Assembly (NCBI GenBank): GCA_021848605.1
Contig: JAJZUM010000005.1
Span: forward strand, 1-34,910
Direction: 5' to 3'
Origin: Pseudomonadota bacterium
GTDB taxonomy: Bacteria; Pseudomonadota; Gammaproteobacteria; Pseudomonadales; Moraxellaceae
Length of the DNA stretch: 34,910 nt
Shown here: one piece after another, positions 6,559 through 20,049 of the stretch
Layout of the letters: every line of letters begins with the position of its first letter
Numbering within the stretch: position 1 is the stretch's first letter
Position numbers and translations under genes: made by a program
Notes under the pieces: model-generated
What the model saw: only the letters and a program-made list of their open reading frames with translations
Database searches by the model: none
What the model was told of the DNA's origin: nothing

Positions 6559-8508
6559 ATGTTAGCCATGAATTCAACCTGCGGGGGATTTTTTTTACCA
6601 CGCCGGATTGTCATCATAGTCCTCATACTTTTTTCAACGGCTGGATGGTCAAACCCAAATTCAAAGATCGCCTTACCGCTGATCATGGCCATGGACTTTA
6701 CGCCTTCCAGTCATGAACCAACCAATCACCAGGCTCTGGTTTGGTTAAGCGTTCTGGATCAGTTGAAAAACAGAGATTTTATGTTTAGCCACAACCTCAG
6801 GCAAACCGATCTTCCGCCACGATTACATGCGATCATGATACTGGTACGCCATCCCGACAAGGATTTTTTTGAGAAGGTGTACCCCGGCCTGCACCTGATG
6901 AAGATTCCGTTCATTTTATGCCTGAACGAACAGAATATGAAAAATCATCTTTCATGGCATGCGGTCCGAACCATGCTGTCGGGTGGAGCCATCCTGGCCA
7001 ATGCAGGGAGCCGAGCACCTTCGTTGATTAAGTCAGACCCCCAAGGCGACCTGCAGCCCTGGATATCGACCCGCGCCTGGTCAAAACACGGCTATGAACC
7101 GGATGCCCAGTATCACGAACGTATCCGTGCCGATCTTGAGCACATGCAACAACGCATCGTGCGCGAGACCAGCTATAAAACCAGCATAGTGGTCTGGCCT
7201 GCGGACGTACACAGCGAGGAACTTGACGGGATTGGCCGCAATCTTGGACTAAAGTACAGCCTTTATGACGCCAGCACCGGAATACCCTCCGACCCGGAAC
7301 CCGCCACCCTGGCATGGCACCGTATCAGCCTTCACTCGATTCAGGGAGCACTGGACCAGATTAGCCTCCTGATTCGACACCACCCCGATCACGACAATAC
7401 TCAGACCGTCATGCATGTTAACCTTGACTACGTCTACGACAAAGACCCTGCCCAGGAAAACTTCAATCTGAACCAATTGATCCATCGCATCAACAGCATG
7501 GATGTCTCAACGGTTTATCTGCAAGCCTTTGCGGACCCAGATGGCAACGGCGCCGCTGATGCAGTCTACTTTCCCACAACCATACTTCCGGTCCGTCAGG
7601 ATTTGTTCAATCATGTTGCCTGGCAGATCCACCTGCACACCCACGTCCGCCGGGTCTACGCCTGGATGCCACTACTGGCCTGGCAACTTCCTTCATCCAA
7701 TCCAGAGGCTCACGATCAGGTGGTTACCCTGCCAAGCCGACCCAACCATACTGACATGGGCTATCCCCGCCTTTCTCCCTTTTCAGCACCCGCCCTGAAG
7801 GTGATAACCGCCATTTACAAAGATCTTGCTCAACATTGCTGGTTCAACGGACTGCTTTTCCATGATGACGCCACCCTGTCTGATTTTGAAGATGACAGCC
7901 CAGCAGCACGGGCATTTTATGAACACATCGGGCTGCCGGGCTCGGTAGCAGCCATTCGGCAAAACCCCTCTGCAATGGAGCGATGGACCCTACTTAAAAC
8001 AGCACAACTCGATCGTATTGCTTTGCACCTCGCGGATACCGTCCGCAACAACCACCCGGGACTGAAAACGGCTCGCAATCTCTACGCCCAGGTTGTTCTC
8101 AATCCCGCATCCGAAACCTGGTATGCCCAGTCCTTGAGCCGAACCCTCCAGGACTTTGATTATGCAGCCATTGAGGCGATGCCCTATATGGAAAATGCCA
8201 CCGATCACCCGTACTTCTACCACGACCTGTTGCAAGCCATAGGCAACCAGCCACAAGGCTTGCAGAAAACCGTTTTCGAGTTGCAAACCAAAGACTGGCG
8301 CAGCGGAGGAACCCCCATCCCAACACCGGTACTTGCCCAAACAGTCTGCATGCTCTACGGCTGGGGTGTTGTCAATATTGGCTACATTCCTGACGACCCT
8401 TTTCGCAACAACCCGGACCCAACCATCTTGCGCCCAGCTCTGGAGCATCACTGCGCCAGCAACCCCCACATCCAGTCAATGGGCAGCGCCCCAATGACGC
8501 CCCCATGA
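6559..8508 (+). CDS. pgaB: PgaB-like protein: degenerate deacetylase domain plus intact-looking hydrolase domain
   Basis: PgaB is a periplasmic enzyme of poly-beta-1,6-N-acetylglucosamine export, with an N-terminal CE4 deacetylase and a C-terminal GH153 glycoside hydrolase. This 649-residue homologue has a signal peptide (RRIVIIVLILF to about Trp30) without a lipobox. The C-terminal half (about 284-625) is strongly PgaB-like: 'VNLDYVYD', 'STVYLQAFADPDGNG', 'VYAWMPLLAW', 'RLSPF', 'GLLFHDDATLSDFED', 'LKTARNLYA', 'AMPYMEN'. In the N-terminal half the usual TFDDG is replaced by 'LVRHP' (Arg97-His98 in place of Asp-Asp). The two metal-binding histidines of the SHTxxxH motif are Gly150 and Ser155. 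It therefore should not deacetylate. No pgaA, pgaC or pgaD is in the window. GAGG eight bases upstream supports the ATG at 6559. Its 3' end overlaps the convergent polA by 33 bases. Confidence 0.85.
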   Translation: MLAMNSTCGGFFLPRRIVIIVLILFSTAGWSNPNSKIALPLIMAMDFTPSSHEPTNHQALVWLSVLDQLKNRDFMFSHNLRQTDLPPRLHAIMILVRHPDKDFFEKVYPGLHLMKIPFILCLNEQNMKNHLSWHAVRTMLSGGAILANAGSRAPSLIKSDPQGDLQPWISTRAWSKHGYEPDAQYHERIRADLEHMQQRIVRETSYKTSIVVWPADVHSEELDGIGRNLGLKYSLYDASTGIPSDPEPATLAWHRISLHSIQGALDQISLLIRHHPDHDNTQTVMHVNLDYVYDKDPAQENFNLNQLIHRINSMDVSTVYLQAFADPDGNGAADAVYFPTTILPVRQDLFNHVAWQIHLHTHVRRVYAWMPLLAWQLPSSNPEAHDQVVTLPSRPNHTDMGYPRLSPFSAPALKVITAIYKDLAQHCWFNGLLFHDDATLSDFEDDSPAARAFYEHIGLPGSVAAIRQNPSAMERWTLLKTAQLDRIALHLADTVRNNHPGLKTARNLYAQVVLNPASETWYAQSLSRTLQDFDYAAIEAMPYMENATDHPYFYHDLLQAIGNQPQGLQKTVFELQTKDWRSGGTPIPTPVLAQTVCMLYGWGVVNIGYIPDDPFRNNPDPTILRPALEHHCASNPHIQSMGSAPMTPP

Positions 8509-11196
8509 GCAGGACACCTGCAGAGGCACTCGCAAGGAAACAGCCTGACACATACACTCCGACACCCAGTCGGCAACTTGGGCACAACGCTCATCCGGCA
8601 CTTCAAGCACCAGTTCATCATGGACCTGCAAGACCATCTGAATGCGTTCATCGCCTTGTTCGCGAAGTCGCTCGGCAACCTGGAGCATGGCTTTTTTCAT
8701 AATGTCCGCTGCTGAACCCTGCATGGGCGCATTGATGGCTGCCCTCAAAACCGCAGCTTTTTGAACCGCAGGCATGGAAGATAACGAGGGCACATGCAAC
8801 CGCCGCCCCAACAGCGTTTCAACGTACCCCTGACGTTCGGCCAAGTGTCGCGTTTGTTCCATAAACTGCTGAATACCGGGATAACGCTCAAAGTAGCGTT
8901 TCATCCAGGCATCAGCCTCCTGTCGCGAGCAACCCAGCTGTTGAGCAAGACCAAAGGCAGACATGCCATAAATCAAACCAAAATTAATCGCCTTGGCGGC
9001 TCGACGCTGCGCATCATCAACTTCATCCAGACGAACCGCAAATATTTCCGCTGCCGTAGCCCGATGCACATCCAGCCCCAAACGAAACGCCTCAACCAGG
9101 GCAGGATCGCCACTGTAATGGGCCATAATCCGCAATTCGATCTGCGAATAATCTGCCGACAACAGCATCGACCCCTCAGGCGCAACGAAGGCCTCACGGA
9201 CACGACGCCCCTCCGGACTACGAATAGGAATATTTTGCAGGTTGGGCTCTGCCGAAGATAAACGCCCGGTAGATGTTCCCACCGGATTATACGTCGTATG
9301 AATACGACCTGATTCCGGGCGCACCAGAAGGGGTAGCTTGTCGGTATAAGTCGACTTGAGTTTGCTCAGACGACGATACTCCAGACAAAGAGCCGGAACA
9401 GGATGTTGGCTTGACAGAACCTCAAGCACTGCCTCAGCAGTTGATCGCTGACCGGTAGCCGTCTTTTTGGAGACATTCAAACCCAATCGATCATAAAGTA
9501 CATCAGCCAGTTGCCGGGGCGAATCAATATTGAAAACCGTTCCCGCCTGCTCATGAATATCCAGGCGCAGCTGATCGATCCGTACACCTAGCCCAGCGCT
9601 TTGGGCTTGCAACACTTTGACATCGACACAAACCCCATGCAACTCCATGGCAAGAAGAACATCACTAAAAGGCTGGTCAACGTGATTCAGCAACTCCAGG
9701 AGGTTTGACTGTTGAGCCAGCTCCTCTTCCAGTTCCCGGTAAAGTCGCAAGAGTACTTCTACTTTTCGAGCACAAACCGATCGATCAGGCGTTTCAAAAA
9801 GATCCTTTTGCACCTGGGAGGCTTCAATCTCCAACCCCCAACGATTCTTGGCCTGAACCTTAAGATCGAGCGGCTGTCGTACATCCAGCAGGAACAAGGC
9901 CAGATGAACATCGCGAACCACACCGTTCAGATGCACCTGCATTAATGCCAGACGATGCCCGAGCTCCTTGGCATCCCAAACAATTTTGCTGCTATCCCGG
10001 GACTGAATCCAGTCTTTCAACTGCGGCCAACCCGGAATCAGCTGCACATCACCCAACCATAGAGCAATACGCTTTTCTGTGTTTTCCTGCATGCTGGAAT
10101 CAAAAAAATACCACACCTCCTGATCTTGACCTATCGTCTGGACTCCAAAGACACGGGCATGATTGCTTGTTTCAAGCCCCAGTTCATCCACATGACGCAG
10201 TTCAAAAAAATCAAGCGTTGCCGGGACTTGATGATTCTCTTCTTGATCAAGCTCTTTCTGGCGTGGTTGGCTTACCGCTACAACAGTATCCCTGTCCGTA
10301 GTCAATGCTGAAGCCGACCGAAGCAGGCGACTACGCTCTGCCCGAAACTCAAGACGATGATAAATCTCATCAAGACGAGGCAGGTTTCGCGGCCCTCGCA
10401 CAAGGCTCTGCCATGGTCGAACCGGAACATTGGCACGAACCGTGGTGAGCTCATGCATCAGTGGTAATTGAGGTAAAGCCTGCTTTAATGCCAGGCCAGT
10501 TTTTCCGGACATCGTTGGAATTTGCCGCAAAAGATCTTCCCAGGACAACGAACCTTGCACAAGTTTCTGAGCCGTCTTGGCACCCACACCCGGCACACCA
10601 GGAATATGATCAACCGAATCACCCAGCAATGCCAAATAGTCCGCGATGCGGTGTGGCGGAACACCAAATTTATCCTGAACCGCCTGTTCATCCAGGATTA
10701 TTTCTTGGGAAGGGTGATAAATTCGGATAAACGGTTGCACCAGCTGCGTCAAGTCTTTGTCGCTTGAAGCGACTAAAACATGACACCTCTCTCCTGAAGC
10801 CTGTAATGCCAAAGTGGCTAAGACATCATCCGCCTCAACACCGAACTCGCGAATCACCGGATAGCCCTCGGCTTCGAGTAATTCAAAAAGCAACTCGACC
10901 TGCGGGCGCAAATCCTCAGGCATGGGTGGACGATTTGCCTTATATTGCGGGAAAAGCTCATGCCGAAAGTTATTGCCCGGGGCATCGAAAACGATCACCA
11001 ACCGTTCAGGACGCGTTTTGTCGATCAGACGATTGAGCATATTGATAAAACCACGAATGGCGCCGGTTGGCACGCCATCCGAGGTACTCAATGGCGGCAT
11101 CGCATGGTACGCCCGGTAAAGAAAACTGAAGCCATCAACCAGGAGCAAACCTGCACCTGTCAGGCCATCGGCAGTTTCGGAGAAACCTACAGCCAT
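8476..11196 (-). CDS. polA: DNA polymerase I with apparently inactive proofreading domain
   Basis: Repair and Okazaki-fragment polymerase, 906 residues from the chosen start. The 5' nuclease domain is complete (from 'LLLVDGFSFLYRAYHAMP', with 'EADDVLATLA', 'SSDKDLTQL' and 'GVPGVGAKTA'). The polymerase domain has motif A 'SADYSQIELRI' (about 680-690), motif B 'RRAAKAINFGLIYG' and motif C 'QVHDEL' (about 857-862). The middle domain lacks the proofreading residues of E. coli Pol I: no DTET motif, 'WDAKELGHRL' where NLKYD is expected, and 'SVCARKVEVLLRLY' where the last Asp is expected. I chose ATG 11196, with GGGG six bases upstream and the family-like N-terminus; ATG 11208 and a TTG at 11256 are alternatives. 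Confidence 0.95.
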   Translation of the reverse strand: MAVGFSETADGLTGAGLLLVDGFSFLYRAYHAMPPLSTSDGVPTGAIRGFINMLNRLIDKTRPERLVIVFDAPGNNFRHELFPQYKANRPPMPEDLRPQVELLFELLEAEGYPVIREFGVEADDVLATLALQASGERCHVLVASSDKDLTQLVQPFIRIYHPSQEIILDEQAVQDKFGVPPHRIADYLALLGDSVDHIPGVPGVGAKTAQKLVQGSLSWEDLLRQIPTMSGKTGLALKQALPQLPLMHELTTVRANVPVRPWQSLVRGPRNLPRLDEIYHRLEFRAERSRLLRSASALTTDRDTVVAVSQPRQKELDQEENHQVPATLDFFELRHVDELGLETSNHARVFGVQTIGQDQEVWYFFDSSMQENTEKRIALWLGDVQLIPGWPQLKDWIQSRDSSKIVWDAKELGHRLALMQVHLNGVVRDVHLALFLLDVRQPLDLKVQAKNRWGLEIEASQVQKDLFETPDRSVCARKVEVLLRLYRELEEELAQQSNLLELLNHVDQPFSDVLLAMELHGVCVDVKVLQAQSAGLGVRIDQLRLDIHEQAGTVFNIDSPRQLADVLYDRLGLNVSKKTATGQRSTAEAVLEVLSSQHPVPALCLEYRRLSKLKSTYTDKLPLLVRPESGRIHTTYNPVGTSTGRLSSAEPNLQNIPIRSPEGRRVREAFVAPEGSMLLSADYSQIELRIMAHYSGDPALVEAFRLGLDVHRATAAEIFAVRLDEVDDAQRRAAKAINFGLIYGMSAFGLAQQLGCSRQEADAWMKRYFERYPGIQQFMEQTRHLAERQGYVETLLGRRLHVPSLSSMPAVQKAAVLRAAINAPMQGSAADIMKKAMLQVAERLREQGDERIQMVLQVHDELVLEVPDERCAQVADWVSECMCQAVSLRVPLQVSCSWGRHWGAAH

Positions 11197-11402: not shown

Positions 11403-12050
11403 ATGCAGGCACATACAGCTCGATCGTTAATTGAACTGGCCCTGAACCATGAACGGAAGACTCGCTCTTTTGCTCGGATCCTTGCCATCCGACTGGCTGA
11501 ATTGTACCCTGATCAACACATTCACCTTACGCGCACGAGCCAATTTCTTCATTTTGTCTTTCAGTACATTCGCCATACAGCCGATGTTCTTGAAAGCATG
11601 AACCATGCGGCCGAATGCTCGGGGCTCAATGATCAGGCCCAACCTTTGACCCGAATGTTTGACGATCTGTTCTTGCTCGGTAGTGGTTCCTCTGAGGACA
11701 AACGTAGTATTGAGGAAATCCTGGATGAGTCCTACGTGATTCATCGCTTGATCGAGGTCATTAACCAGATGTGCCTGAACCAGGGATATCAGCCCTTGCT
11801 GGCTCTTGAAATGAGCACCCCCAATCTGATCATTCGCACACTGATTGGCCCACCCTACGTGGAGGAACTTGAAGAGATTGCTCATGATGCCGCCACGGCC
11901 CTCATGCATCAAACAAAAAGTCTGAGGCAACGACATGAATGGCAGGATGCATGGCAACAAAACTCCAGACATCTTGGTGATGACCCTGATGTTGGTCAGC
12001 CCTTCTTCGCAGCGAAACAAGCCGCGATTGATTGGGGCAACCTGCAGTGA
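11403..12050 (+). CDS. Unrecognised helical protein coupled to a diguanylate cyclase
   Basis: A 215-residue soluble protein with no signal peptide, membrane segment or motif that I recognise. Predicted composition is almost entirely helical, rich in Leu, Glu, His and Ile, with amphipathic stretches such as 'RSLIELALNHERKTRSFARILAIRLAELY' (broken here to its pattern) and 'HRLIEVINQM'. A GGGG ribosome-binding site (11393-11396) precedes the ATG by six bases. Its TGA stop lies two bases before the ATG of the following GGDEF gene, and a GTG overlaps it as GTGA, so the two are probably translationally coupled. A regulatory or binding partner of the cyclase is the natural guess, but there is no direct evidence for a function. 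Confidence 0.75.
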   Translation: MQAHTARSLIELALNHERKTRSFARILAIRLAELYPDQHIHLTRTSQFLHFVFQYIRHTADVLESMNHAAECSGLNDQAQPLTRMFDDLFLLGSGSSEDKRSIEEILDESYVIHRLIEVINQMCLNQGYQPLLALEMSTPNLIIRTLIGPPYVEELEEIAHDAATALMHQTKSLRQRHEWQDAWQQNSRHLGDDPDVGQPFFAAKQAAIDWGNLQ

Positions 12051-12052
12051 AC

Positions 12053-14269
12053 ATGGCGTCAGCTGAATCAGTTTTGCAATCCACTGAGCCGCACACAGCA
12101 GTCTGTTGCCTGCTGGCACAGACGCTCAGCGATCCGGTGTGGTTTCTTGATATGTCCGGCAATGTCTTGTGGTGTAACCCAGCTGCTGAACGTTTCAGCC
12201 TGCCCAAACCGGGCCCTGCACCACACAGCCTGACGCCGTTCGGGCATTCATCGCAGGACACAATAGCACTTGTTGGTCTTGACGGCACGTTACACTTTGC
12301 CCATATGCATCAGGCCCTTGGCAGCTACCAAGGTCAAAAAGTACGTCTACTGCGCGCCATTGCCCAGGATACGACCCATCACCCATCGGAAATCATCAAC
12401 CGACATCTGATTCAGACCCTTAAGGACCGACAACAACTGGTTGATGCGATGCAACGCGCCAATGAACAGCTAGAGGCCATCATTGAAGTCCAGAGTCACC
12501 TGGCTCAGCTTTCACTCGATATGCATTCCTATGCCCAACATGTGGTTGATCGTCTATGCACCCTGATTCATGTCCAAAGTGCCAGTGTCTTTTTGCTTGA
12601 AGAAATGCGGCTTGATCGCCTTGCCCATCAAGGCCCCCCCCATCTACCCAAGGTACTGCCTCTGTCCGAAGCCCCCAAAATGGCTCTGGATGGGTTGAAT
12701 AATGACCAGATTATTCTTATTGATCAGCCTGCCATGCGCGACGTTTTCCACTGGTTTGGACTGAAACAGGATCAACGTCTGGTCTTGGCCCCGCTGCATC
12801 ACTCCCGATCCTGTGTTGGACTGATCGTGCTGACCATAGCCCATGACGGCCTTTTTACTGAACGTGACCGACAAACCCTACAGTTGCTCACCCGCATGCT
12901 GAGTTCAGCACTGGTGCACCAACGCGACTATGCCCTCAACCACCGACTTCTTCAGGAACGCACCCGGCACGTCCAAGATCTTCAGGAGGAGATCAACCGG
13001 CGTGAAGCCAGCGAACAGGCACTCGGGAAAGCCCACGAGCGTACCCACGCCATTCTGGAAACCTCCCATGAAGGATTTCTAAGCTTTGATCGTCATCTCT
13101 GTATCACTGATCTCAATGCAGAAGCAGCTCATCTACTCGGTGCACCGCCCGAAACGCTCAAAGGCCGCTCCATGGCCGACCACCTGCTGCAGGAGCCCTT
13201 TCTTAGCCGTCTACGCTTGGGCATGAGTCAGTACCGACGACACGGACGATGGCCATGGCTCAAGCGTCGGATGGAAGTACGCCTTGAAACCTACCAGAAC
13301 ACATCGGTTATTGTTGAGGTCAGCTTTAGTGCCACCGGAGACCTGGAAGAACCTGAATTCCATGCTTTTCTGCATGACATTTCGCACCGCAAACGCAGCG
13401 AACTGGCTCTTTTGCAACAACAGCGCATGTTGCGTGCCATCAGCGACCATTTACCAGCGTCCGTCTTATTTGTTGACCTGAGCGGATATTGCCATTACGC
13501 CAATCATCACGCCCGTCAAGTCATTGATGCAGACATTTCCCCAGCGCAAGTAATCTCCTTGGAGCATTTGTTTGTTGATTCGACTCCATCGACACAGGAT
13601 TTTATTGCTCAGGCCCGCAATGAAGGATTCAGCAGAGCTGAAGCGAGCGTTCCCACTGTTCTGGGCCTACGCCGTTGCGAGATCCGCTGCATGTTCCAAA
13701 CCGGTGTCGATGAAACGCCCGAAGGAATCCACCTGGTGATTTGGGATATTGAAGACCGCTGGCAGGAAGCCCTGCGTTTGCGTGATGCCGCACAGCGAGA
13801 CCCCTTGACGGGCACGCTCAATCGGAGTGGATTCATGCAGGAAGCACAGATTCAGCTTCAGAATGCATCCGCAAGCACGCATGCGCTACTTTATCTTGAT
13901 ATGGACACCTTCAAACCGATCAATGACCTTTACGGCCATGCAACCGGCGATGAAGTCCTGCAGGTTTTTGCAGCCCGCCTGCGTGCATGTATTCGTGAAG
14001 GCGACCTGATTGGTCGTATTGGCGGAGACGAATTCCTGATCCTGCTGCGCAATGTTGACCGCATTGAGGTTGCCGAGCGCATTGCCCGCGACATACTACA
14101 GGCAACTCGACAGGTGTGGCGAATCCAGGGTGTAAACCTGCATGCAACGACGAGCATCGGATTGGCACTGCACCGAGCCGGCGAAACCGCCGCCGAGGTG
14201 GTCGCCCGAGCCGATCGGGCACTGTATGACGCCAAGGCTGCAGGCCGGGATACCTTTCGGCTGGCCTGA
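12053..14269 (+). CDS. PAS/GAF sensor diguanylate cyclase
   Basis: Makes cyclic di-GMP from two GTP in response to an unknown signal. The 738-residue protein has no membrane segments. Domains in order: PAS (about 15-105, 'DPVWFLDMSGNVLWCNPAAERF'-type pattern), coiled coil, GAF (about 145-285), coiled coil, PAS (about 315-440), PAS (about 450-570) and GGDEF (about 580-738). The signature is an exact GGDEF at 657-661 and an inhibitory-site RxxD (Arg648-Asp651) is kept, so it should be active and product-inhibited. No EAL domain. Start choice: ATG 12053; a GTG at 12047 overlapping the preceding stop has a better-placed GGGG (nine bases) and would add two residues. Confidence 0.9.
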   Translation: MASAESVLQSTEPHTAVCCLLAQTLSDPVWFLDMSGNVLWCNPAAERFSLPKPGPAPHSLTPFGHSSQDTIALVGLDGTLHFAHMHQALGSYQGQKVRLLRAIAQDTTHHPSEIINRHLIQTLKDRQQLVDAMQRANEQLEAIIEVQSHLAQLSLDMHSYAQHVVDRLCTLIHVQSASVFLLEEMRLDRLAHQGPPHLPKVLPLSEAPKMALDGLNNDQIILIDQPAMRDVFHWFGLKQDQRLVLAPLHHSRSCVGLIVLTIAHDGLFTERDRQTLQLLTRMLSSALVHQRDYALNHRLLQERTRHVQDLQEEINRREASEQALGKAHERTHAILETSHEGFLSFDRHLCITDLNAEAAHLLGAPPETLKGRSMADHLLQEPFLSRLRLGMSQYRRHGRWPWLKRRMEVRLETYQNTSVIVEVSFSATGDLEEPEFHAFLHDISHRKRSELALLQQQRMLRAISDHLPASVLFVDLSGYCHYANHHARQVIDADISPAQVISLEHLFVDSTPSTQDFIAQARNEGFSRAEASVPTVLGLRRCEIRCMFQTGVDETPEGIHLVIWDIEDRWQEALRLRDAAQRDPLTGTLNRSGFMQEAQIQLQNASASTHALLYLDMDTFKPINDLYGHATGDEVLQVFAARLRACIREGDLIGRIGGDEFLILLRNVDRIEVAERIARDILQATRQVWRIQGVNLHATTSIGLALHRAGETAAEVVARADRALYDAKAAGRDTFRLA

Positions 14270-15856: not shown

Positions 15857-16969
15857 ATGCAACATGACTCTATGCACTTCATTCTATTTTGTCGAGTCAT
15901 TGATCGTTTTGGTGATGCCGCTATTGCATGGCGCCTCGCAAGGCAGCTTGTGGCAGCCGGTCAGTGCTGTACACTGCTGATTGATCACCTGCCCACACTG
16001 AAGCAACTCTGCCCCGAACTTGATATGCTGCACCTCGATTTGGATGGAATCCGGGTGATAGTCTGGTCGAAGGATGTACGGCCATCTGACCTGCCAGTGG
16101 CCGATGTCTGGATTGAGTGTTTCGGTTGCGGTTGGGGGGGCCTTGATCATTCACACTACACGGATCCGCAACGACCTTTGCGCTACAATCTGGAATACCT
16201 AGGCACAGAATCCTGGGTGGAGCAATGCCATGGACTAGACTCACCAGACCCACGCACCGGCCTGAAAACTACGTTCTGGATTCCTGGGTTTAGCAGGTAT
16301 TCTGGCGGATTGCTAAGAGAACAGGGACAGGACGAAGACGACGCCCCATCAGATCTATTAAGCCGCCTGTTAGGGATGCCAGTCCACGCCTCAGCTTGCA
16401 GTGTTTCACTCTTTTGTTATCAGCACGCTCCGTTGCAAGGACTGGCTGATGCACTCGTGGAGCAGAGCGAGCACCAGGAGACCCATCTGTTGATTTTTCC
16501 GGGAGAACCCAGCAAGGCATGGTCGCAGATCTCCCTATCCATGACATCACCACTGCATATCCATTGGCTTCCCTGGCTCTCGCACACAGACTATGACCGC
16601 CTGTTGCGTTGCTGTTCCCTGAATATTGTTCGGGGTGAAGATTCTTTCGTACGCGCCCACTGGGCCGGAAGGCCCCTACTCTGGCATGCTTATCCCCAGG
16701 ATGATGTCGCTCATCTTGACAAGGTTCGCGGCTGGCTGGAACAGCGCCCAGTCAGCCAACCCTTTTACGCCTGGCACCTGGACTTTAATCAGGGCTCAGG
16801 CCATCCTGACCAAGCTCGTGCCGCACTGGATGTGCTCCCTGAAGAACAGGCCTGTATCCTTGAGTTTCGCAGGACGCTACGCGGCTTGCCCAGTCTTGTA
16901 GAACAAATGCTCGAACATATCCAGCATCAGCGTTCTTCCGGACAATCCAATGCTATGCTTAATGCATGA
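15857..16969 (+). CDS. earP: EF-P arginine rhamnosyltransferase EarP
   Basis: EarP transfers rhamnose from dTDP-rhamnose to Arg32 of elongation factor P, which lets EF-P relieve ribosome stalling at polyproline. The 370-residue protein has the GT-B layout of the family: N-terminal 'DRFGDAAIAWRLARQL' containing the two catalytic-region aspartates (Asp16, Asp20; DNFGD in most members, here DRFGD), 'ADVWIECFGC', 'YLGTESWV', and the nucleotide-sugar site 'NIVRGEDSFVRAHWAGRPLLWHAYPQDD' pattern with the conserved Arg-Gly-Glu-Asp. The efp gene, usually adjacent, is absent; instead the stop overlaps a histidine kinase start (ATGA). The best ribosome-binding site is distant (AGGA 13 bases upstream). 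Confidence 0.92.
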   Translation: MQHDSMHFILFCRVIDRFGDAAIAWRLARQLVAAGQCCTLLIDHLPTLKQLCPELDMLHLDLDGIRVIVWSKDVRPSDLPVADVWIECFGCGWGGLDHSHYTDPQRPLRYNLEYLGTESWVEQCHGLDSPDPRTGLKTTFWIPGFSRYSGGLLREQGQDEDDAPSDLLSRLLGMPVHASACSVSLFCYQHAPLQGLADALVEQSEHQETHLLIFPGEPSKAWSQISLSMTSPLHIHWLPWLSHTDYDRLLRCCSLNIVRGEDSFVRAHWAGRPLLWHAYPQDDVAHLDKVRGWLEQRPVSQPFYAWHLDFNQGSGHPDQARAALDVLPEEQACILEFRRTLRGLPSLVEQMLEHIQHQRSSGQSNAMLNA

Positions 16970-19900
16970 GCATCAATATTGAAGCATCCTTTCTCTTGCA
17001 ACGCTCCACCAGCATCCATCGTGCCCTGGTGGATGGTGTCGCTGCCCGTGTACTGGCCTGTCGTCTTTGTCAGGATGTCGAGGCCAGGGCGGTAGGCTAT
17101 GCTTTTGCCATCATGATTCAGGAGACGAACGAACTCAAACTTTGGGCTGCTTCACCGCAGACTGCAGAACTGCAACGACAACTGGAACAGCGCAGTGCGG
17201 ATCGACAACGCTGTGCTCGTTGTGCTGTGATCAGCATGAATCAGGCAATTGTCGCTCAGGATCAAGAGCGGGATGACGCATGTCATCCCTGCTATATGAA
17301 TGCCCTTGCTGCACCATGGTCGTGTTGGTCCTATCCCATTGTCGACGGCGACAATATTATTGGTACCTTACGTGTCAGCAGTCATCAGCATTGCCAACCG
17401 AGTCGCGACGAGGCCGACCTGCTCGACACCCTTGCGTCCATGGCTGGTATTCTGTTGTGCTTTGAACGCAATCAGCAAACCCAGCAGAAACAGGCCCAGT
17501 CACTGGCACGACTTGCAACTTTTCAAAAAACGCTCACTGAAATTAATGCCATGGTTGCCATGGCCCAGGAAGAAACCCAGTTCCTGCAATCAATTTGTGA
17601 CCTACTGGTTCATAAAACCGGCATGAAGGTTGCCTGGGTATCCCGCCCCAATGCATCAGGCTGGTTTGAGGTCCTGGCTGCTTCAGGTCAGACTGCTTAT
17701 CTGGATGGACTTCAGGTTTGTACGGATGCGGCACACCCTAAAGGTCGTGGCGGCATTGGTCGAACCTGGCGGGAACAGCGCTGTTTTTTCAACAACCAGT
17801 TTCTGACCAATCCCGACATGCTCGCCTGGCTGGATCGTGCCCGTACCTGGAATATTCGCTCCAGTGCGACGCTGCCCTGTCTAAGCCAACAACGCATCTG
17901 GGCGGTACTGGCTGTTACCCATGAACACGAGAATGTTTATGATGAGCCATTGCAAACTCTGCTCGAAGAACTGGCCAACAGCATCGCCCGGGGACTTGAC
18001 CTTCTTGCCCGTCGTCAGCAGGAAAAGCATCTTATGGCTGTCCAGGGGCATCTGATCAACAACACCAGGGTCGGTATGACCATGGTTCGCAATCGCCGAT
18101 TCATTCTGGTTAATCCTTATTTTGCGCAGATTTTGGGGTATAACCATCCATCCGAACTCATTGGCCAGTCAACGCGCATAATTTACCCGAACAACGAAGA
18201 ATACCAGCATATTGGCAACATGTACCGCAATGTACCCGGCATCGGCCATGCCAGCCCCATGTTTCAGACATTCCTGCTGCACAAGGACGGACACACCGTA
18301 CCTTGTGAGACCAATTTTACCCTGAATGAGGATGAAGAAGGCACCTTTTCCATTTGGACGCTGATTGATATCAGTGATCGCATTCAAAGGGAACAAGAAC
18401 GTAATTTGTACCGCGATCAACTGTTACGCTATGCCGAACGGGTACCGGGCATGCTCTACAAATTTCGATTGGCCCCAGATGGCCTCATGAGCTTTCCGAT
18501 TGCACTTGGCTCGGTCCGGGAAATGATGGGTGCCAACGCCGAGGAACTCCAGGCTTCTGCTGACCCGGCGTTTGCTCGTCTGCATCCGGATGACTACCCC
18601 TTTGTCGCCCAGTCTATCCTTGAATCAGCCCAGAACATGACTCCCTGGCACCTGGATTGCCGACTGGTATTGGATCAGGGAATTGTTTGGCGGCGTGGCA
18701 GCTCCGTACCTGAACGGGAAGAAGATGGGTCGGTGGTCTGGTATGGCTTCATTGCCGACGTAACTGATCAGAAAAATATTCTGGAAGCGCTGCAAACCAG
18801 CGAAGCACAATTACGCGCTGTTTTTTCAGCATCGCCTGCAGCTATGGCTGTACTTGATGCCAATGACTTCAGGATCCGCTCGGTCAATCCTGCTTGGTTG
18901 CGCCTGCTCGGTCGTGATGCCGAACAGATCAAAGGCAAGACCCTGATCCAAAACGGCATATGGTCCCACATTGATGACCAGAACATCTTCCAGCAACACT
19001 TGACGGCACCCCACGCCTTGCATCAACCCATGGAACGCACCCTACTCAATGAGGAAGGACTGCCGATTTTATGCCGTATTGTTGCCGCCCGGACCCAGTC
19101 CGGGGACGCGATTATTATGATTGTTGAAGATATTACCCTGCAAAGAGCTGCCGAGCAGTCCATCGCCCGCATGAATCAGGCACTGGAACTGCGGGTTCTG
19201 GAACGAACCCAGGCATTAGAAGCCAGCAACAACGCCCTGCAAGCAAGCCTGGTTGAACTTCAGGCCACCCAGATGCATCTGGTAGAAGTCGAAAAACTAT
19301 CCGCTCTTGGTCACTTAGTCGCGGGTATTGCCCATGAAATCAACACCCCTGTGGGCAACAGCCTGTTGGCTGCCACCAATCTTGATCAGATGCTGCTGGA
19401 CATTGAAGCGCGTGTCCAACAAGGCATCAAACGCAGCGACTTCCAGGATTTTCTCCTGCAGGCTCAGCAGTCCTCAGCGGTGATTGTACGCAACCTGTAC
19501 AAAGCCGCTGAACTGGTCACCTCCTTCAAACAGGTTGCTGTTGACCAGAACTTGCCTGACAACCGCCGCTCTTTTGACTTGCGTTCCCTGATTCTGGACC
19601 ATATCAACCTGCTCCAGCCTCGCCTGAAACATACGCCGATATCCATACGCCTTGATATGGATATCGAGATCGTGATGCAGAGCCTACCCGGCCCACTCGG
19701 ACAGATCCTGACCAACCTGATTACCAATACCCTGGATCATGCCTTTGAAAACATGCCCGCTGCACCATTGATCCGGATTCAAGTCAATGGTCTGGAGGAT
19801 GACATGGTAGAAATTCGGGTTGAAGACAATGGCCGGGGCATTTCTGCTGCCGACCTTAGCCATATCTTTGAACCCTTTTTCACAACCCGTTTAGGCAGGG

Positions 19901-20049
19901 GCGGTTCCGGCCTCGGATTGCACATCAGCTACAATGCCACCATCAGCTTAGGCGGCAGGCTCAATGTGCAGAGCACGGAAGGTCAGGGCACCTGCTTCAT
20001 CCTACGCATACCGCGCACTCTTCCTGAGCGCAACCTGAACGACGTTTGA
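16966..20049 (+). CDS. Cytoplasmic multi-sensor histidine kinase with CxxC-rich N-terminal domain
   Basis: A 1027-residue kinase without membrane segments. Domains: N-terminal GAF-like domain (about 20-165), second GAF (about 195-345), PAS (about 360-475), PAS (about 490-605), PAS (about 612-725), a coiled coil, dimerisation/phosphoacceptor helix with His790 in 'GIAHEINTP', and an ATPase domain with DNGRG (954-958), FEPFFTT (968-974) and GGSGLGL (979-985). The first domain has three CxxC motifs: Cys32/35, Cys83/86 and Cys106/109, plus Cys120 and Cys143. This suggests metal, Fe-S or thiol sensing; that is inference. No receiver domain and no response regulator adjacent. The start overlaps the earP stop (ATGA). 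Confidence 0.92.
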   Translation: MSINIEASFLLQRSTSIHRALVDGVAARVLACRLCQDVEARAVGYAFAIMIQETNELKLWAASPQTAELQRQLEQRSADRQRCARCAVISMNQAIVAQDQERDDACHPCYMNALAAPWSCWSYPIVDGDNIIGTLRVSSHQHCQPSRDEADLLDTLASMAGILLCFERNQQTQQKQAQSLARLATFQKTLTEINAMVAMAQEETQFLQSICDLLVHKTGMKVAWVSRPNASGWFEVLAASGQTAYLDGLQVCTDAAHPKGRGGIGRTWREQRCFFNNQFLTNPDMLAWLDRARTWNIRSSATLPCLSQQRIWAVLAVTHEHENVYDEPLQTLLEELANSIARGLDLLARRQQEKHLMAVQGHLINNTRVGMTMVRNRRFILVNPYFAQILGYNHPSELIGQSTRIIYPNNEEYQHIGNMYRNVPGIGHASPMFQTFLLHKDGHTVPCETNFTLNEDEEGTFSIWTLIDISDRIQREQERNLYRDQLLRYAERVPGMLYKFRLAPDGLMSFPIALGSVREMMGANAEELQASADPAFARLHPDDYPFVAQSILESAQNMTPWHLDCRLVLDQGIVWRRGSSVPEREEDGSVVWYGFIADVTDQKNILEALQTSEAQLRAVFSASPAAMAVLDANDFRIRSVNPAWLRLLGRDAEQIKGKTLIQNGIWSHIDDQNIFQQHLTAPHALHQPMERTLLNEEGLPILCRIVAARTQSGDAIIMIVEDITLQRAAEQSIARMNQALELRVLERTQALEASNNALQASLVELQATQMHLVEVEKLSALGHLVAGIAHEINTPVGNSLLAATNLDQMLLDIEARVQQGIKRSDFQDFLLQAQQSSAVIVRNLYKAAELVTSFKQVAVDQNLPDNRRSFDLRSLILDHINLLQPRLKHTPISIRLDMDIEIVMQSLPGPLGQILTNLITNTLDHAFENMPAAPLIRIQVNGLEDDMVEIRVEDNGRGISAADLSHIFEPFFTTRLGRGGSGLGLHISYNATISLGGRLNVQSTEGQGTCFILRIPRTLPERNLNDV

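Follow-up and report, generated by a model that had tools for sequence, protein, structure and literature searches.

A PgaB paralogue with a dead deacetylase domain and a changed -3 subsite in its hydrolase half

Introduction

What is a PgaB-type protein kept for once its deacetylase site is ruined? The question is raised by one such protein, whose 649-codon open reading frame (6559-8508, + strand) lies in a 34,910-nucleotide stretch of DNA that we refer to as the window. The first-pass annotation of this stretch, made from its letters, described the protein as an orphan PgaB homologue with an erased deacetylase active site and a retained hydrolase domain. We find that the reading frame is real, and the core observation of that annotation is confirmed: the CE4 site is ruined and the GH153 catalytic residues are preserved. 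As we argue below, the protein would best be explained, with a probability of roughly 0.6, as a PNAG hydrolase that is exported, has a remodelled -3 subsite and carries a pseudo-deacetylase domain in a structural role; it would be a duplicate PgaB kept for its GH153 half.

Materials and methods

The comparison set of 53 normal PgaBs consists of seven proteins from paralogue-bearing genomes, the PgaB of Chromobacterium, 22 loci of the family, L059 of Acinetobacter baumannii, ten loci from a search of the order and 12 from a search of the class. Repeats (L011, L090, L091) were dropped, as was L101, a repeat of one of the paralogues. Loci L097-L100, whose C-terminal part did not align as GH153 or was short, were also left out; their CE4 motifs are intact. 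Within the set, L078 is a fragment next to an internal stop, and the first two CE4 motifs are missing from it. The paralogue of G031 is cut by a contig end, so counts for the CE4 half refer to eight full-length copies and counts for the GH153 half to nine. For the tree L028 was left out, and 21 of the 22 family loci (L022-L043) were used.

The family search matched 112 of 299 genomes and motifs were read in a subset of the loci, so the number of genera with the paralogue is at least three. The same search gave 17 GH153 matches without a CE4 domain, 15 sequences of which were compared (without G166 and G118). Of these, L104 may be part of a normal PgaB, since the start of its contig truncates it and pgaC follows; it was left out of the final 14 stand-alone GH153 proteins, and it too has Asp at the D326 position. 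L116 and L117 were not counted in any set.

Results

The gene and its surroundings

6559..8508, + strand: PgaB-like paralogue with a dead deacetylase domain, 649 amino acids
6559..6651, + strand: N-terminal hydrophobic export signal, residues 1 to ~31, without a lipobox (read by eye; putative cleavage position)

Upstream of the gene lie an engB-type GTPase gene, two cytochrome c genes and a ClpB-type gene; downstream, polA is convergent with it and the 3' ends overlap. A scan for promoters and terminators found none ahead of the gene on its own strand. Beyond polA the window also holds a PAS/GAF diguanylate cyclase with a GGDEF domain (12032-14269) and a large PAS/GAF histidine-kinase-type protein (16966-20049); control of PgaC-PgaD by c-di-GMP is reported in PMC7112194.

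Pfam model GHL13 (PF14883, GH153) covers residues 286-609 of the protein with an E-value of 2.6e-133, and Polysacc_deac_1 reaches 22.2 bits, below the Pfam cut-off of 23.1. The equivalog model TIGR03938 (PgaB, deacetyl_PgaB) gives 486.5 bits with a match that starts at profile position 118. As its cut-off is 321.9 bits, automatic annotation would label the protein 'N-deacetylase PgaB', and this name is misleading. The best relatives of solved structure are BpsB and E. coli PgaB. No relatives were found in the viral contigs scanned.

The deacetylase site is lost in every full-length copy

6667..7383, + strand: CE4 (NodB-type) remnant, residues ~37-275 (alignment; PgaB deacetylase fold in the model)
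6847..6852, + strand: R97-H98, in place of the catalytic/metal Asp-Asp (E. coli D114-D115; alignment)
7003..7005, + strand: A149, in place of metal histidine H184 (alignment)
7018..7020, + strand: P154, in place of metal histidine H189 (alignment)
7036..7050, + strand: D160-P-Q-G-D164, two Asn of normal PgaB changed to Asp in 8/8 full-length paralogues
7195..7206, + strand: WPAD, residues 213-216, in place of WPYG (alignment)

The erasure of the CE4 active site, first noticed from R97-H98 at the Asp-Asp pair and from WPAD at WPYG, stands. The replacements of the two metal histidines had been placed at Gly150 and Ser155, one residue too far; once relatives join the alignment they fall on A149 and P154. 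The first of these aligns with the metal histidine whose E. coli PgaB number we take to be H184. The N-terminal histidine of the SYHE motif (E. coli H55) is gone as well and is D46 in the window protein.

The loss extends to all eight full-length paralogues, every one of which lacks the second Asp, both metal histidines and the N-terminal histidine, and none of which keeps the complete CE4 set (metal Asp-His-His plus catalytic Asp) in the alignment. At the positions of E. coli D114-D115 we read R-H (two copies), D-H (one), D-A (three) and D-E (two). The first Asp is thus retained in six of the eight, which means that the site was not erased in the same way in every paralogue. The H184 position carries A or E, the H189 position P, D or N, the H55 position D, P or A, and the WPYG position WPAD, WPND, WPAG, WPGG or WPNG. 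In the 53 normal PgaBs, drawn from the family, the order and the class, the CE4 His and Asp ligands are intact wherever the motif is present, and WPYG varies in three (WPYA twice, WPFG once). A dead-CE4 pattern that is common to the nine-copy clade and found in 0/53 normal PgaBs is not a matter of chance.

Another change in this half concerns the usual Asn-Pro-Gln-Gly-Asn of normal PgaBs, which is Asp-Pro-Gln-Gly-Asp in the window protein: normal PgaBs have Asn at the position of D160 in 53/53 cases and at that of D164 in 51/53. Together with E180, D160 and D164 are the only invariant acidic residues of the CE4 remnant among the eight full-length paralogues, and a search for an invariant histidine in these remnants found none.

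The comparison with PgaB structures proposed in the first-pass annotation points to retention of the CE4 fold. In a model of moderate confidence (mean pLDDT 65.6, pTM 0.48), residues 37-273 of the window protein superpose on the PgaB deacetylase fold of 4u10_A (Z 20.5, rmsd 3.0, 220 residues aligned), with a similar match of the CE4 half to 3vus_B (Z 20.2, rmsd 3.0, 218 aligned).

The hydrolase half keeps its catalytic residues and has a changed pocket

7414..8385, + strand: GH153 (Pfam GHL13) domain, residues 286-609 (Pfam; structural match to 6au1_A)
7420..7422, + strand: N288, at the position of BpsB D326 (-3 GlcN subsite); Asn in 9/9 paralogues
7861..7866, + strand: H435-D436, equivalent to BpsB H473 and the proposed catalytic acid D474; kept in 9/9 paralogues
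8191..8193, + strand: E545, at the position of BpsB E585 (substrate binding, +2); unchanged in 9/9 paralogues (number mapped via neighbouring positions)
8347..8349, + strand: C597; Cys in 9/9 paralogues and 0/53 normal PgaBs
8386..8388, + strand: I610, at the position of BpsB Y648 (central cavity); Ile in 9/9 paralogues
8452..8454, + strand: C632; Cys in 9/9 paralogues and 0/53 normal PgaBs

The GH153 signature LFHDDATLSDFED is retained, as had been noted, and the modelled GH153 half matches 6au1_A with Z 25.4 and rmsd 5.1 over 332 aligned residues (45% identity in the Foldseek alignment). Seven residues, H435, D436, D290, D326, D442, E545 and E574 in window numbering, are kept in 9/9 paralogues; they are the equivalents of BpsB H473, D474, D328, D364, D480, E585 and E613. 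Among normal PgaBs the H473 position is Gly in 1/53.

What the first-pass annotation had missed is that the hydrolase half is itself altered. In BpsB numbering, used from here on for this half, D326 is Asn in 9/9 paralogues and Asp in 53/53 normal PgaBs and 14/14 stand-alone GH153 proteins; Y648 is Ile in 9/9 paralogues and Tyr in the same 53/53 and 14/14. Of the three -3 subsite aspartates, D328 and D364 are kept in the paralogues and D326 is the one changed. A scan of the GH153 half gave twelve positions with a residue that all paralogues share and that is rare in other proteins; two of them (D326 and Y648) fall in the groove or central cavity described for BpsB. The lineage-specific cysteines C597 and C632 likely form a disulphide pair, which would fit an exported protein.

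Work on BpsB gives these positions a meaning. At subsite -3, GlcN is proposed to be held by D326, D328 and D364; D326N is reported to retain about a quarter of the activity and D474N none, D326A lost more than 90% and Y648F had little effect, and variants with less than 30% activity generally failed to disrupt biofilms (PMC5933820). Fully acetylated PNAG is not cut by the BpsB hydrolase. Because D326N lowers the activity of BpsB on dPNAG, the change in the paralogue could point to reduced enzyme activity or to a binding role and not to a new specificity. It should also be noted that the 14 stand-alone GH153 proteins have no CE4 domain and all keep Asp326, so loss of the deacetylase alone does not drive the Asp326 change. 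We argue that this change would be a feature of the paralogue enzyme and no simple by-product of CE4 loss.

One clade in three genera, with halves that evolve at different rates

The paralogue is present in 3/3, 2/2 and 3/3 of the genomes covered from three genera, which apparently belong to Moraxellaceae; these eight genomes carry nine copies, since G019 has two. The latter genome holds its two dead-deacetylase paralogues on different contigs (L048:1234-3153 and L049:3844-5772) and has one normal PgaB. The tentative family placement comes from loci of the largest genus, which are 65-78% identical to a named Acinetobacter baumannii PgaB. A tree of homologues, another check named in the first-pass annotation, agrees with a common origin: when GH153 halves were placed in a tree of 39 rows, the nine paralogues with the shared dead CE4 site grouped as one clade with support 100/99, and its sister is a group of seven normal PgaBs of the same genera (98/93). 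One duplication before the three genera parted would be the simplest account. In the window genus the gene is flanked by the engB-type gene and polA. It adjoins guaB-guaA in the second genus, where the other copy of G019 lies elsewhere, and is found near tatD in two genomes of the third. In all three genera it is outside any pga operon.

Divergence is distributed unevenly along the protein. Between the window protein and its nearest relative, identity is 89% over the GH153 half and 66% over the CE4 half; for G001, which belongs to the same genus, the values are 75% and 31%, and for the two other genera 61-65% and 20-23%. In five pairs of normal PgaBs the halves differ by 1 to 6 points (86% and 81%, for example). 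For G006/G021, the pair with the least saturated synonymous sites, CE4 dN is 0.158 in the paralogue versus 0.016 in the normal PgaB, and GH dN is 0.031 versus 0.006. The rate of evolution in the CE4 remnant is several times that in the GH153 half. Purifying selection on the remnant nevertheless persists, as dN/dS is 0.10 to 0.21 in three pairs. For the two closest copies within each genus the GH153 halves are 89-94% identical, with dN/dS of ~0.03 in two of these three pairs, and all these ratios are to be read with synonymous sites near saturation in four of six pairs (pS 0.62-0.85) and two GH values uncomputable. The listed copies of the paralogue have no internal stops.

The same genomes carry a normal pga locus

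The word 'orphan' in the first-pass annotation has to be given up. The window genome (2.6 Mb in 219 contigs) encodes a second PgaB on contig C196, which scores 825 bits with TIGR03938 over profile positions 2-620; pgaC adjoins it (598 bits), and the gene order is acnB, pgaB, pgaC, pgaD. Of the pga genes, pgaA alone was not found: a profile search with E up to 10 recognised no PgaA in the window genome, the best match being a weak TPR-type protein of 32.7 bits against a cut-off of 366.65. The more local statement, that pgaA and pgaC are not near the paralogue, is upheld, as the contig of the window has no pgaC-family match. The genome-wide search for pgaACD thus yielded pgaC and pgaD and no pgaA. 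The lack of a lipobox is likewise correct as an observation and fails as a distinctive trait, because by a simple motif test 0/7 normal PgaBs of the same genomes have one.

With E up to 1e-20 the PgaA model also had no match in the seven other paralogue-bearing genomes, and it did match the related genome G010. In the eight genomes taken together (G000, G001, G002, G004, G006, G019, G021 and G031) PgaA is recognised in none, and pgaB and pgaC are found beside acnB in seven. The PgaD model was passed in all five loci scanned, and look-alike frames occur in the other two. The exception to the presence of normal pgaB and pgaC is G002, in which neither was found. We do not accept this as a true loss of the pga operon: acnB, the operon neighbour in the seven other genomes, is missing from G002 too, which makes an assembly gap the likelier cause.

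Comparison with known proteins

The window protein shares its domain order and, in the model, its fold with PgaB/BpsB/HmsF (E. coli 4f9d; B. bronchiseptica 5bu6 and 6au1), as well as the catalytic Asp, the His and the +2 Glu. It differs from them by the lost CE4 metal ligands, by Asn at Asp326 and Ile at Tyr648, by the extra Cys pair and by the absence of a pga operon around its gene. Two PgaBs are reported for A. baumannii, apparently a member of the same bacterial family, AbPgaB1 from a three-gene pga operon (A1S_0938 to A1S_0940) and AbPgaB2, both as deacetylases (PMC9935895). The A. baumannii PgaB of L059 contains the AbPgaB1 peptide quoted in that source. It shares 38.8% identity with the window protein and ~50% with the normal PgaB encoded in the window genome, and its annotated neighbours are pgaC and pgaD without pgaA, the same as in the window genome. 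L059 has intact deacetylase motifs (TVDDG, SHSYHLH, WPYG) and Asp at -3, whereas the window protein lacks both. By this sequence comparison, AbPgaB1 is the type to which the window genome's normal PgaB belongs, and the window protein is neither AbPgaB1 nor AbPgaB2.

The stand-alone GH153 proteins of Acinetobacter type (L102, L103, L105-L115 and L118) resemble the window protein in that their chain has the GH153 active-site residues and no functional deacetylase. Unlike it, they have no CE4 remnant and they keep the equivalents of Asp326 and Tyr648 in 14/14 cases. In the two loci read with wide flanks, L102 and L103, the stand-alone gene adjoins the pga operon. These are Acinetobacter-type pga loci with a pgaA-sized gene (L102:4114-5928 and 7754-8968; L103:4571-6439 and 1519-2835), in which PgaB keeps its CE4 motifs and has an eroded GH153 catalytic motif, and the adjoining stand-alone gene, in opposite orientation, has this motif intact. 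As far as motifs tell, the arrangement is a mirror image of the window paralogue. Yet another arrangement is seen in the relative G026 (L116:424-2418 and 7317-9311), where two further PgaB-like genes have intact CE4 motifs and changed GH153 motifs, and a pgaC-like frame comes after each of them.

CE4 pseudoenzymes have been described: Ba0150 (4M1B) and EcCDA, the latter probably inactive (PMC10967932). As in the window protein, a NodB-type fold has lost metal or catalytic residues in them; they are other branches of the family, and the excerpts of PMC10967932 available to us describe no GH153 coupling for them. Our literature search, over titles and abstract starts among the matches listed, returned no dead-deacetylase PgaB paralogue. 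What is new here, judging from these comparisons, is a PgaB paralogue with a dead CE4 domain and an altered -3 subsite; dead CE4 proteins in other branches were already known.

Discussion

The suggestion that the protein cuts or binds a PNAG-type polymer without deacetylating it appears to be the best reading, given an erased CE4 site and a strongly constrained GH153 half. We think that the paralogue is probably a cutter with its own preference for the biofilm sugar. The gene would be a second, relocated copy of pgaB, most likely from one duplication in the ancestor of the three genera, and would have been retained for its GH153 hydrolase half. Its CE4 half, which has lost the metal ligands and stays in frame with a modelled CE4 fold, may serve as a scaffold for the hydrolase. 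The protein would be exported to the periplasm and would cut poly-beta-1,6-GlcNAc there with less dependence on positively charged GlcN at -3 than normal PgaB, acting as a polymer-trimming or clearing hydrolase beside an intact pgaBCD system. Clearing or trimming of periplasmic polymers by hydrolases or lyases is shown or proposed for AlgL and BcsZ (PMC9384988), and by analogy with these related systems such a role is plausible for the paralogue. A bolder version, to which we give little credence, is that Asn at 326 and Ile at 648, in a protein with no deacetylase of its own, free the GH153 domain from its GlcN requirement, so that fully or highly acetylated PNAG could be cut and undeacetylated polymer cleared or trimmed in pgaBCD cells without a recognised PgaA.

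Not every reading requires an enzyme. The changed -3 subsite could make cutting negligible, and the groove would then hold the polymer for transport or adhesion, perhaps helping in cells without PgaA. The reported losses of activity in BpsB D326A and D326N (PMC5933820) and the failure to recognise PgaA in any of the eight genomes would both suit a binding protein. Such a protein need not keep D474, however, and the proposed catalytic acid is kept in 9/9 copies along with the neighbouring His and the other groove acids; nor does the fold include an outer-membrane barrel that could substitute for the PgaA pore. We regard a pure binding function as unlikely. Less probable still is a CE4 half rebuilt into another site, around D160 and D164 for example, instead of a dead scaffold. 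These two residues are Asp in 8/8 full-length paralogues in place of the Asn of almost all normal PgaBs, and the remnant is still under purifying selection; against this, a new site would have to do without an invariant histidine and with D160, D164 and E180 as its only invariant acidic residues, in a domain that is as little as 20-23% identical between the window protein and the other two genera.

Two further explanations are less credible still. The protein might be an ordinary PgaB in which the same fold deacetylates with unusual ligands, as its TIGR03938 score above the cut-off and the first Asp kept in six of eight copies could suggest; the ligands are replaced differently from genus to genus, though, and seven of the eight genomes already have a normal PgaB, which makes the idea very improbable. 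Hardly more can be said for a duplicate in decay that is turning into a pseudogene. A fast-varying CE4 half with a lost active site is what decay would give, but the high identity and low dN/dS of the GH153 half in the closest pairs, the absence of stops from the listed copies and the retention of the gene in 8/8 genomes covered from the three genera speak against it, and we hold this to be the least credible of the alternatives.

We thus continue to prefer the reading as a PNAG hydrolase that is exported and has a remodelled -3 subsite. For annotation, the case is a warning that the 'N-deacetylase PgaB' cut-off can be passed even though the deacetylase site is gone. PNAG genes without a recognisable PgaA exporter in these genomes are a separate puzzle. 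If the acetylated polymer were accepted, the protein would be a PNAG hydrolase useful as a biofilm tool. Whether Asp326 sets the GlcN requirement could be tested directly on the paralogue and the normal PgaB that its genome also encodes. The paralogue presents the deacetylase and hydrolase halves of PgaB uncoupled in one natural chain, with a clean substitution at the very subsite that is proposed to read deacetylation.
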